Below, piece by piece: positions 2,660 through 42,316 of a DNA stretch of 42,316 nucleotides. The translations under genes were made by a program, and so were the position numbers. Under the pieces are notes generated by a model that worked only from the letters and a program-made list of their open reading frames with translations, was not told the origin of the DNA and did not search any database. The stretch spans positions 1 to 42,316 of IMG/VR virus record IMGVR_UViG_3300017706_000182, one strand, 5' to 3'. The number at the start of each line of letters is the position of its first letter. The stretch's first letter is position 1. This DNA is from a virus.

Positions 2660-3523
2660 TTATTTAGCTGCCCAACCCGTTGCACCTGTTCCTGTCTCTT
2701 TAACATATAAACTTGTACCTGCTCCTCCGTCTGTACGGCTGAATAGAGAACCCACAGGTGCAGGAACAACTCCTTCAGGAGTACCTGCTCCACTTGTCCA
2801 TATTACTTCACCGTCTACATTAAACTTATAAGCTTTAACGTTTTGCCATCTAGAACCTGTTGACCCACAATTTTGTGAGTTATTAGCGTCAGGATTAAAA
2901 GACCCGTCTGTAACATTAAAGTTCCAAACAAAACCCGCAGTACCGTTGTCGTTCTGAGCAGCTAAAGTAAACTCACCCGCTGTATCACCCATGCTTAAAA
3001 GAAAACGTTTTTGATCTACAGCTTGTCCGTTTGCATATACTTCAAAAGCAGAAGTACTGTTTGTTGATGTTGCCCTGATAATTCTAGCTCCTGAACCTTG
3101 TGCCACTATGTTACCGTCTAACAACTGTGATCCTCCTACATTCAAAGCTATTCCAGCAACAGCCGCAGCAGCTATACCTACGGCATCTTCACTAGCATCC
3201 GCTACAATTAGATTAGTATTTGTATCACCTTCCACTCGAAAGTCTACATCAGCACCGCCTTCGTTTACTACGACATCAGTAGCAGATACTTTGAATTTGT
3301 CATCACTGTCACTAATCTTGTCAGAAGTAATTGCACCCGCATCTATCTCACTCCCAGCAATCGTATCGTCTTTCCTGCGTAACTCGCGTCCACCAGCCGT
3401 AGCGTTATCGTGCACTATAACTGTATCTTTATCAGTGTCTACGGTTACTTCTCCTTCAGCACCTGTAAATCCTGCGTGTTGTGCTGTGGTTCCTCTTCTA
3501 AGTTTTACTTGTATGTTTGGCAT
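2660..3523 (-). CDS. Tail fibre/tailspike-like protein with Mtd N-terminal-like domain
   Basis: The protein has 287 residues. Residues 1-45 (IQVKLRRGTTAQHAGFTGAE, TVDTDKDTVIVHD) are an Mtd-N-like attachment domain. Residues 60-150 contain small-residue, fibre-like sequence with a VVVNEGGADVDFRVEG strand pattern typical of head-domain regions of phage fibres. The C-terminal part (about 200-287) includes QNCGSTGSRWQNVKAYKF, TPEGVVPAPVGSLFSRTDGG and a final GTGATGWAAK, a common tail-fibre/collar C-terminal pattern. It should bind host surface structures. It follows a shorter gene with the same N-terminal domain. Confidence 0.7.
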   Translation of the reverse strand: MPNIQVKLRRGTTAQHAGFTGAEGEVTVDTDKDTVIVHDNATAGGRELRRKDDTIAGSEIDAGAITSDKISDSDDKFKVSATDVVVNEGGADVDFRVEGDTNTNLIVADASEDAVGIAAAAVAGIALNVGGSQLLDGNIVAQGSGARIIRATSTNSTSAFEVYANGQAVDQKRFLLSMGDTAGEFTLAAQNDNGTAGFVWNFNVTDGSFNPDANNSQNCGSTGSRWQNVKAYKFNVDGEVIWTSGAGTPEGVVPAPVGSLFSRTDGGAGTSLYVKETGTGATGWAAK

Positions 3524-23803: not shown

Positions 23804-24155
23804 TCTCTATGTCATCTAATTCTAGTGGTAAATTACCACGCTTTATCTGATCCTTGATCCATATCCAAGCAGTAGCGTTCCAAAGTATAGCACCTGCGTG
23901 GTCTTCTGTTTCATCTCCTTCAGCCAGTGCTAACAGATGTCTGAACATACTGTCGTACAGTCTTGTTAAAGGGAATCCTTTCCTCCAGTTGTTGTCTCCG
24001 TAAAGCTTGCCGCCATCTTCAAATCTTTTGGCGAGACTGCGTAAGGCGATCGGAGGAATAAGCGAGGGTCGTCCCCGTCCAATGTCCCCGTCACGTTTAG
24101 CCCCTGTGGTGAAATCTTTAGTATATCCTTGGTTTGGTAGTTTCTCGGTGTCCAT
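23790..24155 (-). CDS. DUF5664 / dATP-dGTP diphosphohydrolase-domain protein
   Basis: The protein has 121 residues. Residues 16-100 match the family pattern: TTGAKRD, RPSLIPPIALRSLAKRFEDG, LYGDNNWRKGFPLTRL, FRHLLALAEGDETEDHAGAI and LWNATAWIWI. The acidic and histidine residues resemble MazG-type all-alpha nucleotide pyrophosphohydrolases, and relatives are annotated as dATP/dGTP diphosphohydrolases, which may shape the dNTP pool during phage replication. It overlaps the exonuclease frame by 190 bp, which is unusually long. The conserved part starts by residue 16, so at most a few residues could be lost by a later start. Confidence 0.75.
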   Translation of the reverse strand: MDTEKLPNQGYTKDFTTGAKRDGDIGRGRPSLIPPIALRSLAKRFEDGGKLYGDNNWRKGFPLTRLYDSMFRHLLALAEGDETEDHAGAILWNATAWIWIKDQIKRGNLPLELDDIENDDR

Positions 24156-24886
24156 AGTTTTTTAATAGTATTAGTTCTGAATGAATAGTTATCTGCTCGG
24201 AGTAGTCGTGCCATCCAAGCGTTCATTAATGCATCTTGTTCTGTGAGTCCTGCTTTCTCGTAAGCTTTAACAACTGTCTCCCAAGTGTATCCGTCTTTGT
24301 CCAATAATTTTTTAGCCCCAACTGGACCGACTCTAGGTACACCACTGAATCCATCTGTTGCATCTCCCATTATGGTTTGCATCAAGTGAAAGTTATCTGC
24401 TTCCTCTTCTGTTGGATGGTGGTACTCTCCTTTGTTGTAGTCGTAGAATACGCCAGGCACTGACTTGAAATCTTTATCGATGCTGACTATAACAGTCTCT
24501 TCGTCCATCTCTTTGTCAGTAGCCAGTATAGATATAACATCATCAGCTTCTAAGTTAGGCCACATCTGTCCGTCGAACTCCTCGATGATCCACTGCTTAA
24601 CTTGTCTAAGTATGATCGGCAGTCTGCTCTTTGATCTGTTAGCTTTGTAGTCAGGGTTCAAGATTCGTCGGAAGTTAGCACGATCAGTCAAGCACATGAC
24701 AACTCTATCTGTCTTCATCATGTCCTTGAACTCTTCCACTCTGTTAACGACACGAGCTTTAGCCATTGCCATGTCAGCGTGTACCGTCCACATCTCCTCC
24801 TTCCACTCGATTGATTCTTCTGCAACAATAGATGCTTCAAACGCTAGTACATCTGCGTCTATTAATAGGGTTGTTTTCTTACTCAT
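23966..24886 (-). CDS. 5'-3' exonuclease (T7 gp6-like, FEN family)
   Basis: The protein has 306 residues. It shows the metal-binding acids of the flap-nuclease family: LLIDADVLAFEAS (D10, D12), NLEADDVIS (113-119), VSIDKDF (134-140) and a helix-hairpin-helix-like DGFSGVPRVGPVGAKKLL (178-195). T7 gp6 degrades host DNA and removes RNA primers. Relatives usually end near the LWTP motif, here about residue 245; the last 60 residues overlap the DUF5664 gene in another frame and look like read-through to the next stop. It starts 8 bp inside the PD-(D/E)XK gene. Confidence 0.9.
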   Translation of the reverse strand: MSKKTTLLIDADVLAFEASIVAEESIEWKEEMWTVHADMAMAKARVVNRVEEFKDMMKTDRVVMCLTDRANFRRILNPDYKANRSKSRLPIILRQVKQWIIEEFDGQMWPNLEADDVISILATDKEMDEETVIVSIDKDFKSVPGVFYDYNKGEYHHPTEEEADNFHLMQTIMGDATDGFSGVPRVGPVGAKKLLDKDGYTWETVVKAYEKAGLTEQDALMNAWMARLLRADNYSFRTNTIKKLWTPRNYQTKDILKISPQGLNVTGTLDGDDPRLFLRSPYAVSPKDLKMAASFTETTTGGKDSL

Positions 24887-25388: not shown

Positions 25389-27244
25389 GACTCTCCTATC
25401 TTAGCTTCACCATCAAGCATTACATTTAGCTTCAACTCTAGTCCTGCTGCTTTGATAGCCAAGACTGCCAACTCACCGAAGTGCTGTGCTTTCTCAGGTA
25501 ATACTTCTGCTTGGAACTCATCATGTACATTAGCTACAAAGCTGTACTCTCTACCGTGTTGCCACTTCATTGAGTTCATCTTATGAAACAGTTGTATCAG
25601 TGCTACCTTCATACACACAGCACCTGCACTCTGTAACAACATATTAAGTGCGGAGTGACTAGAGCGAACAGGCAGTACCCGACCATCTAATCCAATCAGC
25701 TTACCCTCAGCTGCTACCTTCCTCTGTACATCTGCTTGTAACTTCTTCAGTGCAGGCAGGTTGTTTAAGAACTTACGCTTTAACATCTGTCCTTCTTTAG
25801 CAGAACCTCCTACTATCTCTCCGATCTTAGCGTCACCTGCTCCGTAAAGAAAAGCGTAGATGAATGTCTTGGCTTGGTCACGAGTCTCCAGTCCTGCTGC
25901 TTCTTGGTTGAGTGTATGAATGTCTCCTTCTACTACTGTCTTGGCGTAAGCACCTCTGTCGTAGAAAGCTAAGTAGTGAGCAAGCATCCGTAGTTCTAAC
26001 CCTGCTGCATCTGTCCCAACTAACTTGTATCCCTCACCTGCTTTGAATAACTCACGACACTCCTCTCCGTACTCAGCACGACACGCAGGTACTTGTGCTA
26101 CATTAGGATTCTGATGCGTACATCTACCTGTTACTGCACCGTTGGTGTTGACTCTACCGTGTATCCGTCCGTCCTTCTGTAGTTTTAACCACGCTTGATT
26201 GCCTTCTGCTAGTTGTCCTAACCTCTTGGTAACTAACAAGTAATCACATAGTACCTCAGCGAACGGATGGTCTATACCTCTAAGTACACCTTCGTCTACC
26301 TTCGGAGTCTTAGCATCAGGTTCTTTAGGTAAGTCGTATCCTAGTTCACCTAATCGTTCAGCTATTTGCTTACGGCTGCCAGGATTGAACAAGGTAGTCT
26401 TAGTCTTAGGTGCTAACTGTACAGCTTCTTTAACTAAAGTCTGTTTTAAGTTACGACTCTTCAGTTGTTGTTTAAGTGCTGTCTTGGTCGGAGCTGTAAT
26501 AACTTCAATACCATCTTTACAATCTAACTCTAAGCACCAACCACTCGGAGTCTTCATCTCTTCTGTCTTGGATGGAAACTCTTTCTGTAATCTATCTAAC
26601 AGATCAGCACGACGACTAGCTAACACAAGCTCTAGCTTCTCTGCTTTATCTATATCAAACGCAAAGCCTTTCTTCTCTTGCAGTCTCATAAGGAAAGCGA
26701 ACCAGTGTTCCAGTGCTAACATCTCACCGCTCGGTTCTTTCTTCATCAAGTAATCAAACAGTAAGTGTGTTACAACTACATCACGCTCACAATACTTACG
26801 CATCTCGTCGTTGTAGCTGTCGAACGCACCGTCCTCCTCACCGTAAGTTAACTTGGTCAGCTTGCTCATTCGTTTACCCCAAGCTTTCAGTGAGTGGCTG
26901 CCTACTAAACTCTTATCAAAGTCCTTACGTAGGAAGTCATCGTTCCTTACATCAGCTACTATACACTTAGCCATGACCATCGTATCTAGTATTCGGATCA
27001 ATGGAGGTGCGAAGCCGTACAGTTTAGACAGAGCAGGTAGATCAAAACCTATGACATTATGTCCACAGATACGATCTGCTTTAGCTAACTCTCTTAGTCC
27101 GTTTTGTATACCGTCACCGTGATAGGTTACCATCTTGGCGTTCATTGGTTCGTAGATAGACAGGCAGTGTACCGTGTCAAGATCGGTCAAGTTCGACCAG
27201 TCCTGTATCTTATTAGTTTCTATATCAAAGAATAGTGTTTTCAT
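25370..27244 (-). CDS. Family A DNA polymerase with 3'-5' exonuclease (gp5-like)
   Basis: The protein has 624 residues (T7 gp5 704). Exonuclease motifs are LFFDIETNK (D7, E9), CGHNVIGFDLPAL and RDVVVTHLLFDYL. Polymerase motifs are VGTDAAGLELRMLAHYL (D412), RDQAKTFIYAFLYGAGDAKI and VHDEFQAEV (D575). It replicates the phage genome. A thioredoxin-binding loop like that of T7 gp5 is not obvious, in line with the shorter length. It overlaps the 111-residue gene by 4 bp. Confidence 0.96.
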   Translation of the reverse strand: MKTLFFDIETNKIQDWSNLTDLDTVHCLSIYEPMNAKMVTYHGDGIQNGLRELAKADRICGHNVIGFDLPALSKLYGFAPPLIRILDTMVMAKCIVADVRNDDFLRKDFDKSLVGSHSLKAWGKRMSKLTKLTYGEEDGAFDSYNDEMRKYCERDVVVTHLLFDYLMKKEPSGEMLALEHWFAFLMRLQEKKGFAFDIDKAEKLELVLASRRADLLDRLQKEFPSKTEEMKTPSGWCLELDCKDGIEVITAPTKTALKQQLKSRNLKQTLVKEAVQLAPKTKTTLFNPGSRKQIAERLGELGYDLPKEPDAKTPKVDEGVLRGIDHPFAEVLCDYLLVTKRLGQLAEGNQAWLKLQKDGRIHGRVNTNGAVTGRCTHQNPNVAQVPACRAEYGEECRELFKAGEGYKLVGTDAAGLELRMLAHYLAFYDRGAYAKTVVEGDIHTLNQEAAGLETRDQAKTFIYAFLYGAGDAKIGEIVGGSAKEGQMLKRKFLNNLPALKKLQADVQRKVAAEGKLIGLDGRVLPVRSSHSALNMLLQSAGAVCMKVALIQLFHKMNSMKWQHGREYSFVANVHDEFQAEVLPEKAQHFGELAVLAIKAAGLELKLNVMLDGEAKIGESWAQTH

Positions 27245-27576
27245 GATGCAATGTAGTCAACCATCCTAGCATCCTTAAATGCTTCTTCGAGCTTGATTAA
27301 TACTTCATCGTACTCGTCTTTATAACTGTCGGGTACTTCTATATCTCTCATAGGTTCAAGGTCGGATGCTTTTAAGGCTATACCCATATCTATAAGTTTA
27401 TCTGGATTCTTAACACCGTACACATTTTCCCCTAGTCTACCCCTATCTACCCACTGCTGTTGTATGGCGTTGTGTAAAGTGTAGAAGTTTCTGAAGTAAT
27501 GTTTTTCGTGATCATCTTTCCTACTACCAAATTTATTGTAGTCCTTTTGTATATATATTGTCTGATCTAGTCCCAT
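27241..27576 (-). CDS. Conserved hypothetical protein (MGLDxxIY type)
   Basis: The protein has 111 residues. It starts MGLDQTIYIQKDYNKFGSRK and has YFRNFYTLHNAIQQQWVDRG, a pattern like the phage proteins that begin MGLDMYL and contain a conserved Arg/His-containing helix. No function is established. It is coupled to DNA polymerase by ATGA overlap and to the methyltransferase by a 10-bp overlap. Confidence 0.65.
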   Translation of the reverse strand: MGLDQTIYIQKDYNKFGSRKDDHEKHYFRNFYTLHNAIQQQWVDRGRLGENVYGVKNPDKLIDMGIALKASDLEPMRDIEVPDSYKDEYDEVLIKLEEAFKDARMVDYIAS

Positions 27577-28532
27577 GTTAATTGTTCTCCTTGTTTAGAA
27601 TGGTTGGTTGTTAGTTGTTGTTGTATTAATGTTTTGAATGCTAACTCGCAGGTATCAGGTACTACTCCGTTGCCCAAGAGCCTAAGTCTGTCCACCCTGT
27701 GCTGAGTCCCATTAGTTGCTCCACCCAATTTGGATTGAGCTTCGGTGACAGTCCCTGCCTTGTCATGTCTCGCCCTAGACACTTCTGATTGCTGTCCGTT
27801 TTGTTCCTGCAACTTGTCGAGTGATGATCCTCCGCTTGCGGTGTTGCCCACGACCCGTGGTTCTTCCCACTCGTATTGCTCTTCTCCTGGTCTTGCAGGC
27901 CATTCATCTGATTCAAGTCTCTCCCCAAGCACTTCTGATTGCTCTCCTGCGCAGTTCTCGCTCCCTCGATGTGGTCGCTCGCTTGTGGTGTTGCCCAAGA
28001 TGAACACTCGTTTCCTTTGGTGTGGCGCGCCAACTTCTTCCGCACTGAATACTCCCCACGTACACGAGTAACCTCTTTCTTCCAAGTCTCCGAGGACATA
28101 TTTAAGTACCGGTTCTCCGTCTGCGGTCTTGGCTGAGATGATTCCTTCAACATTTTCGAGGAGCACATATCGTGGTCGCATAGCGGTAACTCCATCTGCG
28201 ATGAATGGGTAGAGGTGTCGTGGGTCTTCTGTTGCTTTTCGTTTTCCTGCACTACTGAATGGTTGGCAAGGGAACCCTGCACTGAGGATGGTAACTTTGT
28301 CACGAAGCTCTCGATATGGAAATGTTTTGAGGTCCGTGAAAATAGGACACGCATCCAAGAATCCCGCTTCCATTTTCGCAATAAGGTTGGCAACTGCATA
28401 GGCTTCGATCTCACAGTGAGCAACAGTTCGCAGGTTTGGAATAGCTCGTTTAAGTCCGATTCCGATTCCGTCGTACCCGCTGCACAATGAGACATAGGTA
28501 GGAATACTAGTGGTTTCTTTTTCATAGTTCAT
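27567..28532 (-). CDS. C5-cytosine DNA methyltransferase
   Basis: The protein has 321 residues. Motif I is LCSGYDGIGIG (16-26), motif IV AGFPCQPFSSAG with catalytic Cys89, motif VI LLENVEGI, motif VIII PHQRKRVFILG and motif X LRLLGNGVVP near residue 283. Motifs VIII and X bracket a Glu/Gln/Gly-rich stretch of about 100 residues that would hold the target-recognition domain. No restriction partner is nearby, so it probably protects phage DNA from host restriction. It lies between primase-helicase and DNA polymerase, which is not its place in T7, and both its boundaries carry a copy of the same direct repeat. Confidence 0.93.
   Translation of the reverse strand: MNYEKETTSIPTYVSLCSGYDGIGIGLKRAIPNLRTVAHCEIEAYAVANLIAKMEAGFLDACPIFTDLKTFPYRELRDKVTILSAGFPCQPFSSAGKRKATEDPRHLYPFIADGVTAMRPRYVLLENVEGIISAKTADGEPVLKYVLGDLEERGYSCTWGVFSAEEVGAPHQRKRVFILGNTTSERPHRGSENCAGEQSEVLGERLESDEWPARPGEEQYEWEEPRVVGNTASGGSSLDKLQEQNGQQSEVSRARHDKAGTVTEAQSKLGGATNGTQHRVDRLRLLGNGVVPDTCELAFKTLIQQQLTTNHSKQGEQLTWD
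27594..27626. repeat. Direct repeat at 3' end of methyltransferase gene (copy 2)
   Basis: TTTAGAATGG followed, after a 3-4 bp difference, by GTTGTTAGTTGTTGTTGTAT (27607-27626). The same two blocks end the primase-helicase gene at 28532-28561. The two copies are read in different frames, so this is a DNA-level, not protein-level, similarity. Confidence 0.8.
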
Positions 28533-28561
28533 TTAGAATGGGTTGTTAGTTGTTGTTGTAT
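28532..28561. repeat. Direct repeat at 3' end of primase-helicase gene (copy 1)
   Basis: TTTAGAATGG joined to GTTGTTAGTTGTTGTTGTAT (28542-28561), covering the last codons of the primase-helicase gene. The partner copy at 27594-27626 lies 3' of the methyltransferase, so the two enclose that gene. Confidence 0.8.
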
Positions 28562-30119
28562 CTTCGAACACATTAGTGTCCTCCTTGTATCGTCCTGTGT
28601 CGTGGTCATAACCAAGAGTAGTACAATGTCCTGTCTGTCCGCTGAATCTATTCTTCAACACACGAACACGAGTCTCGTTGCTTGTTGTACCTGCCTGTTG
28701 ATTACGTTCCAATCCAATTACCATGTCACTTAGCTGTGCGATTGCTTGACTGCCCCGTAGATGGTGAAGACTTACTCGTCCTCCTTCTTCGTGACCATTG
28801 TCTACTCGCTTTAAATGTGATACTAATATCATTCCACATCCTGTCTCTTCAACTAGACTTCTAAGTTTAGTCATGGTGTTATCAATTAACCGTCGTTCAT
28901 CATCTCCTTGGATACCACTGATAACAATCGATAGATGATCTAAGAATATCCACTTACAATCGAATCCTTTAATCAAGTATCTGATCTTACTCAGTAGGTT
29001 GTCACTATCCATTGATCCGAAGTGGTCGTAGGTATAGAACTTACCGTTACCTACTGTCTCTTCAAATGCAGGTAACAAAGCTTCTTGTTCTACCTCATCC
29101 TCTTCTAAGTGTAACGGTTTGTTTAAGTGAATACCCATGATACCAAGACAAGTACGCCTGACGGATTCCTCTAACGCTATATAACCTACCGTCTCGCCAA
29201 GACCCAGTAGATGATGAGCTATCTCACGACAGAACAGAGACTTTCCTATTCCACTGCCCGCGCATACCGTAACTAATTCTCCTAGTCTCATGCCGTGGGT
29301 TAACTCATTTAAGCTGAAGTAAGGATACGGTACTGCTTTGTGTTCGTCGCGATTGCTCACTAAATCCCACAACTCTTTACCGTTTACTATTCCATCAGGT
29401 CGGTACTCTCTTGCGTCATATAAACAACTGATCAAGTCCTTCGACTTACCACTGGTCAACATATCATTAGGGTCTTTGAGTGGTAGTTCTGCTATGTATC
29501 CCTTGCCAGGAGTAAGGAGTGCTGCACATTCAGCTGCCCCTTTCCTTCCGACATCATCCATATCAAAACAGAAGACTACTTTCTCGTACCGTTCTAACCA
29601 ATCGATAGCTTGTGCTACATATTTTTTTGCAGCTCCTGCACCATTAGGTACGGACACTACAGGCCACTTGTTATCCATAGCTTGACTGACACTAAGTGCA
29701 TCGATCTCTCCTTCAGTGACAACCACTCGTCGTCCACCGTCTCGCCACAGGTGCTGACCGTACAATCCCATCAGCTCACCCTTCACTGCGAACTTCTTAT
29801 CTGCTCGCCTGATCTTTTGACCTACAGGTTTACCGTCTCGTGTCTTATAGTTAGCTATCTGTACCCACTCACCTTGGTCCTTACCTACCCAGTATCCCCA
29901 CTTCCGACACGTTTCTTCTGTCAAGTTTCGACGTGCTATAGCTTGTGGTTCTCCGTTAATGAAACTTGTTGGTGTTGGTGTAGTAGTCATACGTTGTCCT
30001 CCACTTCGTCCACTATGATCTTGGCAACTGAAACAATAGGAGCTTCCGTCATCGTTGAAGGCTCTTGCATCACTTGACCCACACTTGTCACAGGGTTGAT
30101 GTGCTTGGATAATAGCCAT
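28533..30119 (-). CDS. Primase-helicase (gp4-like)
   Basis: The protein has 528 residues (T7 gp4A 566). The N-terminal zinc site is C10/C13/C29/C32 (PCDKCG, YCFSCQ). A TOPRIM domain follows (VTEGEIDALSVSQAM, FCFDMDDVGRKGA). The RecA-type helicase has Walker A AGSGIGKSLFC (K293), IFLDHLS and RGSQAIAQLSDMVIGLERN. It ends in an acidic stretch with a terminal phenylalanine (NNPF), as in T7 gp4, where that tail contacts DNA polymerase. The start overlaps the end of the endonuclease gene by 133 bp; the zinc site fixes the start near this ATG. Confidence 0.95.
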   Translation of the reverse strand: MAIIQAHQPCDKCGSSDARAFNDDGSSYCFSCQDHSGRSGGQRMTTTPTPTSFINGEPQAIARRNLTEETCRKWGYWVGKDQGEWVQIANYKTRDGKPVGQKIRRADKKFAVKGELMGLYGQHLWRDGGRRVVVTEGEIDALSVSQAMDNKWPVVSVPNGAGAAKKYVAQAIDWLERYEKVVFCFDMDDVGRKGAAECAALLTPGKGYIAELPLKDPNDMLTSGKSKDLISCLYDAREYRPDGIVNGKELWDLVSNRDEHKAVPYPYFSLNELTHGMRLGELVTVCAGSGIGKSLFCREIAHHLLGLGETVGYIALEESVRRTCLGIMGIHLNKPLHLEEDEVEQEALLPAFEETVGNGKFYTYDHFGSMDSDNLLSKIRYLIKGFDCKWIFLDHLSIVISGIQGDDERRLIDNTMTKLRSLVEETGCGMILVSHLKRVDNGHEEGGRVSLHHLRGSQAIAQLSDMVIGLERNQQAGTTSNETRVRVLKNRFSGQTGHCTTLGYDHDTGRYKEDTNVFEDTTTTNNPF

Positions 30120-30502
30120 GATTTAGGTATAACTTTGTTTGCATATTTAATTCCTTTCTTTTCGCACCAATGAGCGTAGGATGTTGAGCTTCCCTTTCGT
30201 ATCTTGTTAGCTGCATTCATGAACACCATTCTTATATCTAGGTGTGGATGTTGCTCGCGGACTAACAGATGTTTTGTCCTGTCCTCCGTGACCCATAACC
30301 CCTTGGCTTCAATGATGATGCCGTTGGGGAGTATGAAGTCAGGAGTGTAAGTCGATACTTTTTTATACTCAAGTTGTAATGTCTCGTATTGAAACTCAAC
30401 ACCACTACGCTGTAATTGATTTGCTAGTTTAGCTTCGAATCCAGAACGATAATTAGAAGTTCGCTTTGACGGTCTCTTCTTCTTCGCTTGTCTCTTCGGC
30501 AT
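29987..30502 (-). CDS. Endonuclease I (gp3-like Holliday-junction resolvase)
   Basis: The protein has 171 residues from the inner ATG at 30502; the open frame begins at 30532, deeper inside the SSB gene. T7 gp3 core is clear: YRSGFEAKLANQLQ (E23), YTPDFILPNG (D55), IIEAKGLW (E65, K67), KHLLVREQHPHLDIRMVF and SYAHWCEKKGIKYANKVIP. The spacing of D55, E65 and K67 equals that of T7. It resolves branched DNA and breaks down host DNA. The last 45 residues run into the primase-helicase gene and are probably not conserved. Confidence 0.93.
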   Translation of the reverse strand: MPKRQAKKKRPSKRTSNYRSGFEAKLANQLQRSGVEFQYETLQLEYKKVSTYTPDFILPNGIIIEAKGLWVTEDRTKHLLVREQHPHLDIRMVFMNAANKIRKGSSTSYAHWCEKKGIKYANKVIPKSWLLSKHINPVTSVGQVMQEPSTMTEAPIVSVAKIIVDEVEDNV

Positions 30503-31097
30503 CGAATACTTGGTCAAGGGTTTCACCGCCATTTGCTACGTATCCTTCTTCACTGGTAAACCCGAAAGACTCAGCAGCAATGTTACTCACTCCACCGTTG
30601 TTCAGCTCGATCACTTGCACTGCTTGCAACTCAAAGCTTACACCGAATCCAATCGAACCTACATAGTAAAACTTAGGACGAAAAGCTACATTAACTTTAC
30701 TTCCACCCCATACTTTTACATCTTCAGGTAACGCTTTACCTTGGGCATCGTACAAAGCAATGGATAAGTGATACTCAGTACCGTCCTTGCGTCGTCCACC
30801 TGCTTTAAGTTTGACCTTTGCTAACCAAGTACCATCTTCTTGTTCTTCAAGTGGCAAGTCTCGTTCGCTGATCTTCTTCTTAGAAGGGTTAGCTTCCTTA
30901 ACTGCTTGCAACTCCTGCTCGTACAACGGACGAATCTTATCTTTTAATAGCTTCGCTTGATCTCCATCGATTATTACATCACAGCTGTACGCTCCGTAAT
31001 CAGGTTCAAACCTTTTATTAGGTTCATTTAAGTGGCAGTACTTAGCTGTGCCTTTGACTTTGATTATGTCGTGTTTCTTTCTTGCTTGTATACTCAT
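30453..31097 (-). CDS. Single-stranded DNA-binding protein (gp2.5-like)
   Basis: The protein has 214 residues (T7 gp2.5 232). It has KGTAKYCHLNEPNKRFEPDY, YSCDVIIDGDQAKLL and VNVAFRPKFYYVGSIGFGVS, the OB-fold pattern of phage T7-type SSBs, then a strongly acidic C terminus ending in phenylalanine (SEEEETVKANF). In T7 this acidic tail with terminal Phe contacts DNA polymerase and helicase. It follows the RNA polymerase gene by 29 bp and overlaps the endonuclease I gene. Confidence 0.92.
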   Translation of the reverse strand: MSIQARKKHDIIKVKGTAKYCHLNEPNKRFEPDYGAYSCDVIIDGDQAKLLKDKIRPLYEQELQAVKEANPSKKKISERDLPLEEQEDGTWLAKVKLKAGGRRKDGTEYHLSIALYDAQGKALPEDVKVWGGSKVNVAFRPKFYYVGSIGFGVSFELQAVQVIELNNGGVSNIAAESFGFTSEEGYVANGGETLDQVFDAEETSEEEETVKANF

Positions 31098-33442: not shown

Positions 33443-33653
33443 CTTTATCTTTCTTAACTCTGATCGGCATATGATTAAACCACACACGAGGACGGACACG
33501 TGGAATGTCGCTTCTGACTACGTTTAAGTGTTTATCGTACTTCAACTCGGTGTTAGCCCAGAACAATTCACATCCATCAGTGACCATTTGCATGATCGTT
33601 TCAGCTTCTCTCTGTGTGATCTCGTGTCCGTCCTCGTCTTCGTCTTCGTCCAT
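33432..33653 (-). CDS. Hypothetical early protein
   Basis: The protein has 73 residues, with a very acidic start (MDEDEDEDGHE) and a basic end (MPIRVKKDKDAK). It overlaps the RNA polymerase start by 11 bp, so the two are probably coupled. In the middle is a helical stretch, IMQMVTDGCELFWANTE. I do not recognise the family. Confidence 0.65.
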   Translation of the reverse strand: MDEDEDEDGHEITQREAETIMQMVTDGCELFWANTELKYDKHLNVVRSDIPRVRPRVWFNHMPIRVKKDKDAK

Positions 33654-33672: not shown

Positions 33673-33813
33673 TTAGTCCAAATCTTTAATCAAAGCTTCC
33701 TCTCGTCTTGCTTCGATGTCTTCCTCAGTAAATTCTTCTTCGGGATTAAAGTCGTCATCATCCTCATAGTCAAGGAAAGAAGTTAAATAGGAGTCGTAGT
33801 TACAGTTTCTCAT
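33673..33813 (-). CDS. Short acidic early protein (46 residues)
   Basis: ATG at 33811-33813, TAA at 33673-33675. The protein starts MRNCNYDSYLTSFLDYEDDD and stays acidic (EEEFTEEDIEARREEAL). It overlaps the end of the upstream gene by 14 bp. Small acidic early proteins of T7-like phages often inhibit host enzymes, which is a possibility here but not shown. Confidence 0.6.
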   Translation of the reverse strand: MRNCNYDSYLTSFLDYEDDDDFNPEEEFTEEDIEARREEALIKDLD

Positions 33814-33985
33814 TTTTTACGGACACGTAATCATTGTTTAACTTATCCAAGAGCTTCTGCAACTCTAGATAGAGAGGGAAAAATCGGTTATCAGGATCGA
33901 GACACTCGCCCCCCATTTCGTTTTGATGAATGTAAAACATAAGTTCCTCGATCATATCGCTTGGTTGTAAAACTTTAACAGTCAT
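33800..33985 (-). CDS. Hypothetical early protein
   Basis: The protein has 61 residues, starting MTVKVLQPSDMIEELMFYIH and mainly helical. It overlaps the preceding 25-codon membrane peptide by 11 bp and the following acidic gene by 14 bp, so the frame is held in a chain of coupled small genes. No known family is recognised. Confidence 0.65.
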   Translation of the reverse strand: MTVKVLQPSDMIEELMFYIHQNEMGGECLDPDNRFFPLYLELQKLLDKLNNDYVSVKNEKL

Positions 33986-34052: not shown

Positions 34053-34264
34053 GATTCTTCATCTTTCTTGTTTAGGTTGTTGTCGTTTTGAGTTTGTTTA
34101 ATCTTTATGAGGGCTTGTGGACTATAATATCCACCGTCAAAGCTGACATGTGGAGTTAAAGCCTGAAGGCACGTAAGGCAGTAATCGCCTTCTCTATCGT
34201 GCCCCCGTAGCTCTAAGCCACAGGTGATGCAAATCTTAGGCTTATTTTCTCTATCACTTGTCAT
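34049..34264 (-). CDS. Small zinc-ribbon early protein
   Basis: The protein has 71 residues. Two CxxC pairs are visible: ICITCG (C12, C15) and YCLTC (C29, C32), spaced as in a zinc ribbon. The C-terminal half is polar and helix-prone (PQALIKIKQTQNDNNLNKKD). Small zinc ribbons may bind nucleic acid or the host transcription machinery. It overlaps the preceding gene by 11 bp. Confidence 0.75.
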   Translation of the reverse strand: MTSDRENKPKICITCGLELRGHDREGDYCLTCLQALTPHVSFDGGYYSPQALIKIKQTQNDNNLNKKDEES

Positions 34265-34442
34265 ATATTTCTTGATAAGCCTCTAGAGCTTTCCCTAGAT
34301 AAAGATTCGTTTCATGTAAGCATACTTCAGCTTGCCATCCGTTTTTCCTATCGTCTTTGACTTGTTGCAAGTGTCTTAGAAGGTTAAAAAGGTTAGTTTC
34401 TAAAGCCTGTATGTGCTCTTGGTTTTCTTCTGTATCGGTCAT
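34254..34442 (-). CDS. Hypothetical early protein
   Basis: The protein has 62 residues, acidic, with a heptad-like helix (ALETNLFNLLRHLQQVKDD) and a second helix near the end. The start is preceded by AAAGAGGGGAACTAAACTTATG-type sequence, a strong Shine-Dalgarno sequence within the first copy of a 27-bp direct repeat. Family unknown. Confidence 0.65.
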   Translation of the reverse strand: MTDTEENQEHIQALETNLFNLLRHLQQVKDDRKNGWQAEVCLHETNLYLGKALEAYQEIYDK

Positions 34443-34466
34443 AAGTTTAGTTCCCCTCTTTCATGC
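34440..34466. repeat. 27-bp direct repeat, copy A (gene boundary/RBS)
   Basis: Twenty-seven bases with a single mismatch to 34659-34685. It covers the stop of one small gene and the ribosome-binding site and ATG of the next. The two copies enclose exactly the gene at 34461-34661. Confidence 0.85.
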
Positions 34467-34661
34467 GTTGTGAGATTTAATGTAATCATCAATACATTCG
34501 TAAGTTGATTTGCTAGTATTATTATACTTAGATTGCATGAATATCTTTAGATGAGCGCTTGCATTACTCCATCTTTCATCGCAAGTTTCATCATTAAAGA
34601 ATCCAGTGCATTCCATTAAGTGTAAAACTAAGTAAGTTGTATAGCCTTGTTCTTCTTTCAT
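34461..34661 (-). CDS. Hypothetical early protein bounded by direct repeats
   Basis: The protein has 66 residues, with YTTYLVLHLMECTGFFNDET, DERWSNASAHLKIFMQ and a final IDDYIKSHNA. Its start lies in the second copy and its end in the first copy of a 27-bp repeat (34659-34685 and 34440-34466), so the gene looks like a small inserted unit. Family unknown. Confidence 0.65.
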   Translation of the reverse strand: MKEEQGYTTYLVLHLMECTGFFNDETCDERWSNASAHLKIFMQSKYNNTSKSTYECIDDYIKSHNA

Positions 34662-34685
34662 AAGTTTAGTTCCCTTCTTTCATGC
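34659..34685. repeat. 27-bp direct repeat, copy B (gene boundary/RBS)
   Basis: Partner of 34440-34466, 219 bp away. It contains the end of the 57-residue membrane protein gene (MKEGN) and the AAAGAAGGGA ribosome-binding site of the next gene. Confidence 0.85.
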
Positions 34686-34839
34686 AAAGGATTAATAAGA
34701 CAACCCATCCACCCAGTGCGATAAAAGGGCTTAGAAGAATGACAAGTGCCATTTGCTTCTTAGATGTGGATTGAAAAGGTTGCGGTTCGCTTTGAGCTTG
34801 TGCAAACTTTAAGAGTTTAGGGTCGATTGAGTTTTTCAT
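34666..34839 (-). CDS. Small membrane protein with LLKFAQAQSEPQ N terminus
   Basis: ATG at 34837-34839, TAA at 34666-34668, 57 residues. Starts MKNSIDPKLLKFAQAQSEPQ, then a hydrophobic helix (MALVILLSPFIALGGWVVLL) and a short end MKEGN. The first 20 residues closely match the N terminus of the protein at 35168-35395, and the DNA behind this is a 28-bp exact repeat. The two different bodies attached to one N terminus suggest domain shuffling. Confidence 0.7.
   Translation of the reverse strand: MKNSIDPKLLKFAQAQSEPQPFQSTSKKQMALVILLSPFIALGGWVVLLILCMKEGN
34784..34811. repeat. 28-bp direct repeat, copy A (N-terminal coding block)
   Basis: Twenty-eight bases identical to 35340-35367. Both encode KFAQAQSEP near the start of a small early gene. 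Confidence 0.88.
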
Positions 34840-34883
34840 AATGTTCGTTTTCTGTTTTGGTGTTGGTGTTATTTTTGCGAGGC

Positions 34884-35171
34884 TTAAAATTCATCCTTGT
34901 AATCCCCTAATGCTTCCCAGTCTGCTTTGCTAGTTCCAGTTTTGTTTTCCGTTTCTGCGATGCTCCATATCTCCCCTACAAAGAAGGATGTATTATGAAT
35001 GTGTTCACCAATTCGCTGAAAATCCTCTGATACATCTGCACTGGTAGCCCATAATGATTTATCATCATCATCTAGGTTATGCCTTTCCTCAATGTTAAGA
35101 ATAATGTCAGTAAATCTATTATATAAAGACTCAAGTGCCTTAACATCTGATTTTCGAAAGAATTTTTTCAT
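34884..35171 (-). CDS. Hypothetical early protein
   Basis: The protein has 95 residues, beginning MKKFFRKSDVKALESLYNRF, then acidic (ERHNLDDDDKSLW) and helical (EDFQRIGEHIHNTS), and ending YKDEF. The start overlaps the stop of the upstream gene by 4 bp. It lies between the 28-bp repeats, so it may be part of an inserted block. Family unknown. Confidence 0.68.
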   Translation of the reverse strand: MKKFFRKSDVKALESLYNRFTDIILNIEERHNLDDDDKSLWATSADVSEDFQRIGEHIHNTSFFVGEIWSIAETENKTGTSKADWEALGDYKDEF

Positions 35172-35395
35172 ACCTTGAAATGCCCCCTTAGTTCTACTAT
35201 CTGATCTTTAATTTCTTGAACGGTTAGTGGTGATTGAATTCCGCTTTGCTTAATAACCTGTAAAGCGATTTTAAGAGTTATGATCGAATTTTCTGCGACA
35301 TCCTTGTTGGTTAATTTTTCTTGGCTCATTTTTGTTTGTGGTTCGCTTTGAGCTTGTGCAAACTTTAGTAATACTTGATCGGGTTTAGTTTTCAT
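35168..35395 (-). CDS. Hypothetical early protein with LLKFAQAQSEPQ N terminus
   Basis: The protein has 75 residues, with an N terminus DQVLLKFAQAQSEPQTK matching that of the membrane protein at 34666-34839 and a body AENSIITLKIALQVIKQSGI, then LTVQEIKDQIVELRG. The shared part comes from a 28-bp DNA repeat. The conserved start may be a signal for a common partner or a remnant of duplication. Family unknown. Confidence 0.65.
   Translation of the reverse strand: MKTKPDQVLLKFAQAQSEPQTKMSQEKLTNKDVAENSIITLKIALQVIKQSGIQSPLTVQEIKDQIVELRGHFKV
35340..35367. repeat. 28-bp direct repeat, copy B (N-terminal coding block)
   Basis: Exact partner of 34784-34811, about 556 bp apart, inside the start of the 75-residue gene. 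Confidence 0.88.
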
Positions 35396-35416
35396 AATTG
35401 TATATATTAGTGTGTT

Positions 35417-36289
35417 TTAGTTTTCTATTAATTCTATTACTTGCTTAAGCTTGTCAATGGTAAGAATGAAACCTTTATCTACTCCATTCTGTAAATCTTC
35501 GGTCAACTTAGCTTTAAGGATTCCATACTTTCCACTCCTATCTAAAAAACGCAAGTCTGTCGTGTCCATATCGTAAGTATCGGATAGAGATAAAGCTTGA
35601 TCTACGTCAGTAGAAACAACAGGGAAAGCAATAGATTGACCGCGTTTTAATGCTTGCTTGTAATGTTTTATTCTAGATTTTGCATTGTTAGCGTATGAAA
35701 AAGTCAAATGATAATTAGGCAATTCAATGCGATTCGGATCTTTGGTATAATCGTAAAATTGAACGTCAGGAAAGCTATTGTATACATTTGAGAAGTCTAG
35801 ATCACTTGTGCCATTCAATCGCACTGCGAACTTATTGCCATTCTTATGTGCACGCTTTTTTGCAAGCTTTATTTCAGCAGTCAAAACGCTTTCCGCTAAG
35901 TCAGGTCTATAAATGGCAATCCAAGACTTAACAATCCTTGCAATATTGATCTTATCTTTCCCGCTCCTCTTTTCTATAAGCCTATGGCCACTTTCCACTA
36001 AACAAGCCAAACGGCAACCTGTAGAAGCATAAGTGCACAAGTCTTTGCCTGCGTTTTTACTGGCTGATAGATAAAGTACTAAGGTGTCAAAGTTATCCTT
36101 TTTACCTTTTTCTATTTTTTGTGAACTGTTAACGCTCGCATAATAACTTATCTCAAAGTCTTTAAGGAATTTACCTCTAGACTTGAAAGAGTAATTGGCA
36201 AGCGTTTGTTCTACTTGTAAGAGGATACCAAAACGTTTGACGGGTAAAGGCTCTTTTAAATAGTTTTTTGCAAGTTCTTTAATATTCAT
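35417..36289 (-). CDS. GP88-family protein (first gene of early region)
   Basis: The protein has 290 residues. It has the GP88 family pattern: LYLSASKNAGKDLCTYASTG with C85, C92 and C96 (GCRLACLVESG), INIARIVKSWIA, FAVRLNGTSDLDF, FPDVQFYDYTKDPNRI, LPNYHLTFSY, and SIAFPVV. The family is common in phages of marine and soil bacteria, and its function is unknown. The three close cysteines and conserved Asn/Asp suggest a metal site. It starts the early gene block after a 642-bp non-coding stretch, so it is probably among the first genes expressed. No Shine-Dalgarno sequence is obvious before the ATG at 36289. Confidence 0.8.
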   Translation of the reverse strand: MNIKELAKNYLKEPLPVKRFGILLQVEQTLANYSFKSRGKFLKDFEISYYASVNSSQKIEKGKKDNFDTLVLYLSASKNAGKDLCTYASTGCRLACLVESGHRLIEKRSGKDKINIARIVKSWIAIYRPDLAESVLTAEIKLAKKRAHKNGNKFAVRLNGTSDLDFSNVYNSFPDVQFYDYTKDPNRIELPNYHLTFSYANNAKSRIKHYKQALKRGQSIAFPVVSTDVDQALSLSDTYDMDTTDLRFLDRSGKYGILKAKLTEDLQNGVDKGFILTIDKLKQVIELIEN

Positions 36290-36483: not shown

Positions 36484-36523
36484 TGATCGTTTGTGATCGT
36501 TTGTGATCGTTTGTGATCGTTTT
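36484..36523. repeat. 10-bp tandem repeat array (TTGTGATCGT)
   Basis: Three exact copies of TTGTGATCGT at 36491-36520, with partial copies on both sides (TGATCGT before and TTT after). A period of 10 bp, close to one helix turn, would place sites on one face of DNA. Confidence 0.85.
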
Positions 36524-41058: not shown

Positions 41059-41289
41059 TTAAAGTTCCAAGGGTTGCGTCCACTCTTCACCTGCTAAAAC
41101 CTCAAGGATTTGAGCGTGGCTATAAGTGTCTTTACCTAATAGAAAAGGTGGCATAGCTCCTTCATACTTAACAAAGGTCTTATCACCTGCAACATTATAC
41201 CGAAGGGTATTAGCTGAGGTTTCAAGAACGTTATTAAAGTCTACAGAAGATACTTCCGAAGCGTCGATGATTACATAGTTTCTGATCAT
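41059..41289 (-). CDS. Small partner of LamG protein, second copy
   Basis: The protein has 76 residues, beginning MIRNYVIIDASEVSSVDFNN. It is paralogous to the 78-residue protein that spans the contig join. It follows a LamG gene (41301-42098) just as the paralogue does. Repeated pairing suggests a dedicated partner such as an assembly chaperone, but no function is known. Confidence 0.8.
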   Translation of the reverse strand: MIRNYVIIDASEVSSVDFNNVLETSANTLRYNVAGDKTFVKYEGAMPPFLLGKDTYSHAQILEVLAGEEWTQPLEL

Positions 41290-42104: not shown

Positions 42105-42316
42105 TTATTCTTCCTCCATAGGTTGTGTCCAAGCTTCGTCTGCTAATACCGTAAGCATAGCTGAGTGGCTGAGAGTGTCTTTACCGTACAAGCAACGAGG
42201 TTTAGCTCCTTCATATTTAACAAAGGTTTCATCCCCCGCTACATTGTATCTTAGTGTGTCTACTGAAGTTTCAAGTACATCGTCAAAGTTGACGGAAGAT
42301 ACTTCTTCACTAGTTA
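42105..42316 (-). CDS. Small partner of LamG protein, 3' part (gene spans the contig join)
   Basis: TAA at 42105-42107. The frame is open to the window end and continues at position 123 down the left copy to the ATG at 146-148. The visible end reads GKDTLSHSAMLTVLADEAW and TQPMEEE. Joined to the 5' part it makes a 78-residue protein paralogous to the one at 41059-41289. Confidence 0.85.
   Translation of the reverse strand, partial: TSEEVSSVNFDDVLETSVDTLRYNVAGDETFVKYEGAKPRCLYGKDTLSHSAMLTVLADEAWTQPMEEE
42194..42316. repeat. Terminal direct repeat (right copy), contig closure
   Basis: Exact copy of bases 1-123. It should be removed once when the sequence is drawn as a circle. Confidence 0.95.

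Follow-up and report, generated by a model that had tools for sequence, protein, structure and literature searches.

A row of small early genes lies on the minus strand of a phage genome that is hereinafter called the window, meaning the whole stretch of DNA analysed (42,316 nt; metagenome-derived IMG/VR record IMGVR_UViG_3300017706_000182). Read along that strand, the row contains a GP88-domain gene identified by a domain match (PF17338; 35417–36289), a 75-aa open reading frame (ORF; 35168–35395) followed by a 95-aa gene, a 57-aa gene whose product has a hydrophobic segment (34666–34839), a 66-aa gene (34461–34661) and a 62-aa gene (34254–34442). The 57-aa gene has homologues in many relatives; a peptide-pattern search confirmed no other carriers of it, and the homology search among the fetched loci found many. 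Three tandem TGATCGTTTG units are located upstream of the early genes (36484–36522), in a stretch that relatives match. A word with ACGTGTCCGT recurs near the early genes (33486–33500, 33623–33637 and 33819–33833), and words of this type are found in L003, L034, L042 and L055 as CTTTACGTGTCCGTGAA, 1–2.4 kb apart. The word is possibly a phage promoter.

The record has a 123-bp end repeat, so it is likely to be a complete genome, of about 42.2 kb. Among its genes are those for a single-subunit RNA polymerase, a T7-type helicase-primase, a family A polymerase and a head-tail connector, by which T7-like phages (Autographivirales) are recognized. Also encoded, on the minus strand, are a gp2.5-like single-strand binding and annealing protein (30453–31097), endonuclease I (29987–30532) and a phage exonuclease (phrog_107, with a 5'-3' exonuclease domain; 23966–24886), and by this gene content the marine phage is T7-like. 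These last three proteins are candidate machinery for the joining discussed below. The nearest named RNA polymerase, that of Pelagibacter phage Eistla EXVC025P, is only 29.5% identical, and a megablast of the window against named phages gave no match. A search with the RNA polymerase yielded 62 relatives; the records used for comparison are labelled L002, L003 and so on. Elsewhere in the window, an Mtd N-terminal domain is found at 2660–3523, and a 191-bp stretch occurs twice near the record ends (41066–41256 and 42115–42305; 72% alike, 1049 bp apart), in what is a probable tail-protein region.

Repeat A is 28 bp long with one mismatch (34439–34466 and 34658–34685) and reads GCATGAAAGARGGGAACTAAACTTATGA on the minus strand. 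As originally predicted for a repeat of about 27 bp, it encloses exactly one gene and carries a ribosome-binding site and an ATG. Specifically, the ATG of the 66-aa ORF is at the end of one copy and its TGA is at the start of the other. The upstream copy (34658–34685) consists of the true 3' end of the 57-aa gene, the ribosome-binding site and the ATGA start of the 66-aa gene. The downstream copy (34439–34466; GCATGAAAGAGGGGAACTAAACTTATGA) consists of a copied 3' end of the 57-aa gene (MKEGN and stop), the ribosome-binding site and the start of the 62-aa gene, and its GCATGA doubles as the end of the 66-aa gene. The signal GARGGGAAC and the ATG of the next gene thus fall inside the repeat. The copies differ by one G/A (GAG/GAA), a difference that is mirrored in the relatives: GAG is found in L002 and L048, while the A of the upstream copy is also present in L079 (GAA).

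Repeat B is 32 bp long with one mismatch (34780–34811 and 35336–35367), with an exact core of 28 bp (34784–34811 and 35340–35367). It codes for LKFAQAQSEPQ in the 57-aa gene, which holds the resident copy, and in the 75-aa ORF, two proteins that are otherwise unrelated. The predicted sharing of KFAQAQSEP through 28 exact base pairs was thus borne out; in the 75-aa ORF, however, the repeat is not at the extreme N-terminus. Over their first 28 bp, the two ORFs show a likeness of only 50%. In the 75-aa ORF, 22 residues including KFAQAQSEP are fused in frame to a 53-aa gene body that begins at an internal ATG (35329), so that the second copy of repeat B lies in the 5' part of the ORF, just before a 53+95-aa cassette (34884–35329). 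A parallel is seen in L050 (222–660), where two unrelated proteins have a common N-terminus, MIQPRK, through a 21-bp exact repeat.

Repeats A and B are real and far beyond chance. Each core occurs exactly twice in the window with 3 mismatches allowed (mean of 0.00 in shuffles), and 40 Markov simulations gave longest exact repeats of 14–17 bp, and once of 20 bp. The exact direct repeats of at least 20 bp in the whole genome are repeat B, a 21-bp repeat at a methyltransferase gene (27606–27626 and 28541–28561) and the tandem array at 36484–36522. Because there are only these three, repeats are not randomly scattered inside genes, as the genome-wide listing suggested with the original prediction was meant to reveal.

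Several known kinds of element were rejected. No inverted repeats were found at the insert ends and no transposase or nuclease family among the inserted early proteins, which argues against a transposon or an ultra-small mobile element with target-site duplication. The repeats show neither a stem-loop nor an excess of promoters. A scan for sigma-70 promoters and terminators, which does not cover phage-type promoters, gave no excess and no minus-strand site in 34200–35450; by that scan the inserts have no promoter or terminator of their own, and a moron was rejected. Start-associated sequences were rejected as well, since each core occurs only twice and is not one motif before many start codons, and so was a leader motif shared by the entire early region, as the window has nothing like one universal boundary sequence. 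Across the loci, certain words are nevertheless over-represented ahead of starts.

Comparison of early regions among related phages showed that the genes between the repeats are absent from close relatives. In L002, whose RNA polymerase gene is 94% identical in nucleotide sequence, the 62-aa gene follows immediately on the 57-aa gene; repeat A and the KFAKAQSEP block are each present once, and the 53+95-aa pair is absent. L048 and L079, which have other neighbours, are in the same state, with one copy each of A and B and neither the 66-aa gene nor the 53+95-aa pair. In L003 and L032, a GP88-domain homologue is followed directly by a 57-aa-type gene, an order broken by the cassette in the window and, by this comparison, likely the ancestral order of site B. 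At 34244–34264, the window lacks a small Cys-rich lipoprotein-like gene that is present in L002 (6299–6445), L048 and several others, upstream of a zinc-ribbon-like gene. The window joint at this position shares ATGACA and looks like a deletion.

Copies of the inserted genes are found in other surroundings. The 66-aa gene is 95.5% identical in nucleotide sequence to L064 2916–3116 and 93% to L065; the match to L064 (95.6%) covers exactly 34459–34661, from start codon to stop. Its neighbours in L064 and L065 are not related to those in the window. The 53+95-aa cassette is 83% identical to L074 3863–4288 and 79% to L075 and L076. The two genes are adjacent in all three records, and in L076 they adjoin a terminase of another family (phrog_2, versus phrog_38 in the window). 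No relative of the RNA polymerase or terminase of the window was found in the donor-type records (L064, L065 and L074–L076), and their comparison with the 33.4–37.7 kb region gave only the transferred genes and one short weak match in L065; L064 and L065 are fragments, so the absence of other shared genes there weighs little. That the empty relatives have the repeat in single copy gives the direction of transfer, which could not be taken from identity by itself. The predicted gain of small genes at gene boundaries is thus strongly supported by both the empty sites and the donor-type copies.

The ends of repeat A coincide with the ends of the transferred gene. Specifically, GCATGAAA opens the repeat and ATGA closes it, and these are the two ends of the 66-aa gene. 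GCATGAAA is found in the window only at the two copies of repeat A. In the donor it is the stop and next start, while in the recipient it is read as codons for Cys-Met-Lys in the tail of the 57-aa gene, 24 bp before the ATGA at the start of the 62-aa gene. At site B, the joints at the internal ATG (35329) and at the stop codon (34884), where the match to L074 ends, are clear; 44 nt past the stop have no traced source. As read from the sequence, repeat B is not a simple duplication, because of these 44 nt, the 50% likeness of the first 28 bp and the fact that no microhomology was demonstrated at the joints.

A third site, at the helicase-polymerase junction, is built in the same way. A C5-cytosine methyltransferase gene (PF00145; minus strand, 27567–28532) matches L052 at 98.7% identity in its first 534 bp, while the flanking helicase and polymerase genes are 81% and 79% identical. 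The site is empty in L040, whose helicase is 97.9% identical. The resident copy of the 21-bp repeat (28541–28561) lies at the 3' end of the helicase-primase gene, and the second copy (27606–27626) lies at the 3' end of the methyltransferase gene, so that the tail of the upstream helicase gene is copied behind the insert. At the 3' joint, donor-type ATACAACAA runs into the copied tail, which continues with the AACCAACCATTC variant of L014 and L052. The two tails differ (AACAACCCATTC/AACAACCAACCATTC); the copied one carries AACAACCAACCATTC, which is present in L014 and L052 and absent from the window's own helicase tail. The source of a 111-aa gene at 27241–27576 was not found in the records of seven relatives.

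The helicase-polymerase junction (27241–28532) is an insertion hotspot, empty in L003, L032, L040, L053 and others. It is occupied by a C5 methyltransferase gene in the window, L014 and L052, by an N6/N4-type methylase gene in L002, and by PTPS-domain and deoxyribosyltransferase genes in L060. It thus marks a spot where relatives bear different DNA-modification genes. A second hotspot is located before the gene at 33673–33813 (window ~33816–33834, L002 6905–7682, L048 2797–3738), with inserts of ~200–1100 bp that differ between relatives.

The 66-aa gene, the 53+95-aa pair and the methyltransferase gene are probably recent horizontal gains by microhomology recombination, and the repeats are probably scars of insertion. 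Since the empty relatives have a single copy and repeat A shares both its ends with the transferred gene, the repeats most likely arose from offset joints and were not pre-existing sites of swapping. Recombination would have used very short matches in translation signals and gene tails to join a foreign gene or gene pair into the densely packed row of early genes. Consistent with this, the joints at site A and at the methyltransferase site lie on microhomologies of 4–10 bp. For the 66-aa gene, the matches would be ATGA, at the start codons, and GCATGAAA; exit from the recipient at ATGA and return at GCATGAAA would give exactly the 28-bp duplication seen. With the return joint upstream of the exit joint, the 3' end of the upstream gene, the ribosome-binding site and the next start would be doubled, and each newcomer would be left under a copy of the translation-start signals of the recipient.

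The joining may have occurred by template switching or by unequal crossing-over between co-infecting genomes, carried out by the T7-type annealing proteins of the phage. The size of the joints would fit single-strand annealing or template switching, and the phage has T7-type proteins for single-strand annealing. Because the differences between copies (GAG/GAA at repeat A, and those of the helicase tails) match variants found in relatives, they suggest, short of proof, that the two copies come from two parental genomes by unequal crossing-over, and not from one sequence copied twice. The repeats might also allow later loss or exchange, and none was observed.

The original prediction regarded the repeats as the agents of gain and swapping, namely as pre-existing boundary sequences, common to many genes or phages, at which homologous recombination inserts or swaps genes. 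Such sequences would account for the position of the repeats at gene edges and for their translation-start signals, and in L059, L041 and L050 the leader, the ATG and sometimes the first codons are common to the inserted gene and the next gene. This explanation is nevertheless unlikely, given that each core is confined to two places in the window, that the three empty-site relatives have one copy, and that the donor-type flanks in L064, L065 and L074 lack the repeat.

Alternatively, the 57-aa gene may have been duplicated in tandem and the extra copies partly replaced by foreign genes, so that a 5' piece remained upstream (B) and a 3' piece downstream (A). In both repeats, one copy is indeed a piece of this gene, one on each side of it, but the limited likeness of the first 28 bp of the B copies, the need for a duplication and two replacements, and a methyltransferase site left unexplained make this very improbable. 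An assembly artefact, in which reads of co-occurring phages were joined at short shared words, is similarly improbable. The record is metagenome-derived, and no exact junction or repeat strings were found in other viral contigs, so that the site rests on one assembled genome; against this, reading frames and translation signals continue unbroken through the joints examined, the same anatomy is found at three separate sites, and the record is complete with its end repeat. It is extremely improbable that the genes are ancestral and that relatives lost them when the two repeat copies recombined: such deletion would leave exactly the single-copy state of L002, but L002, L048 and L079 differ in neighbours and yet all lack the genes, the 66-aa gene diverges by 4.5% in nucleotide sequence from L064 while its two neighbours diverge by 12–17% from L002, and the methyltransferase gene is 98.7% identical to L052 within flanks of 79–81%.

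Insertion at gene edges extends to the relatives. In 76% of 123 filled/empty differences, neither end is more than 25 bp from a gene edge, versus 2.8% expected from random placement, and the insert is exactly one gene in 83; the events have sites in common and are not independent, and part of the pattern is due to selection against broken genes. Of 124 insertions, 12 have flanking overlaps of at least 20 bp, versus 8 of 230 in a gene-boundary simulation; the excess is modest and the data are non-independent. For overlaps of at least 12 bp there is little excess (21 of 124 versus 31 of 230). The simulation led to the rejection of the idea that relatives as a rule have long flanking repeats. Insertions are generally precise to gene edges, whereas long flanking repeats accompany a minority of them and are presumably easiest to see when the insertion is young.

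The kind of event is already known. Pope et al. 2011 (PMC3029335) reported Island3 gene 68, a small gene absent in the near twin Brujita, with ~60 bp of its 3' end common with the 3' end of the upstream gene, and a 1.35-kb segment with 29-bp direct repeats in LRRHood versus Cali; both boundary-sequence and illegitimate recombination were discussed. In the Island3 case the empty relative has one copy, and the arrangement is that of site A and of the methyltransferase site; in LRRHood, as in the window, a direct repeat at gene ends flanks the insert and is single in relatives. The same two features are found here: the genes are absent in close relatives (L002, L048 and L079, and L040 for the methyltransferase), and a direct repeat flanks the insert with a single copy in the empty relative. 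For Island3, neither donor nor direction could be given, whereas the window offers donor-type copies, three empty relatives and joints that coincide with the ends of the transferred gene. The LRRHood insert has four genes and its partner is not known, in contrast to the one or two small early genes, plus a methyltransferase, gained here. In Cluster K mycobacteriophages, start-associated sequences (PMC3203893) also sit just upstream of start codons of non-structural genes; they are a single 13-bp motif that precedes many genes of several genomes, whereas the repeats of the window occur twice each and are private to their own site. The promoter-stem-loop cassettes of T4-type phages, as summarized in PMC4503421 (Arbiol 2010; Comeau 2014), are intergenic sequences tied to gene shuffling between related phages; the repeats of the window differ from the cassettes so summarized in having neither promoter excess nor stem-loop. 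A literature search on phage gene gain by microhomology or template switching found nothing. The window thus adds better evidence on origin and joints to a known kind of event, in that a filled site can be viewed next to its empty counterpart and a donor-type copy of the gene.

How phages gain single small genes neatly, with the neighbours unharmed, is an old question, and ancient joints have decayed. Three fresh joints in one genome, together with empty relatives and donor-type copies, make boundary-sequence exchange and microhomology joining testable against each other. We tentatively raise the possibility that, in this group of phages, translation signals, namely ATGA overlaps, start-codon leaders and gene tails, serve as standing microhomologies and thereby as a general, ready-to-express route of gene gain. 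If so, gene-sized DNA would be joined at offset positions, and the newcomer would automatically receive the start signal of the recipient.
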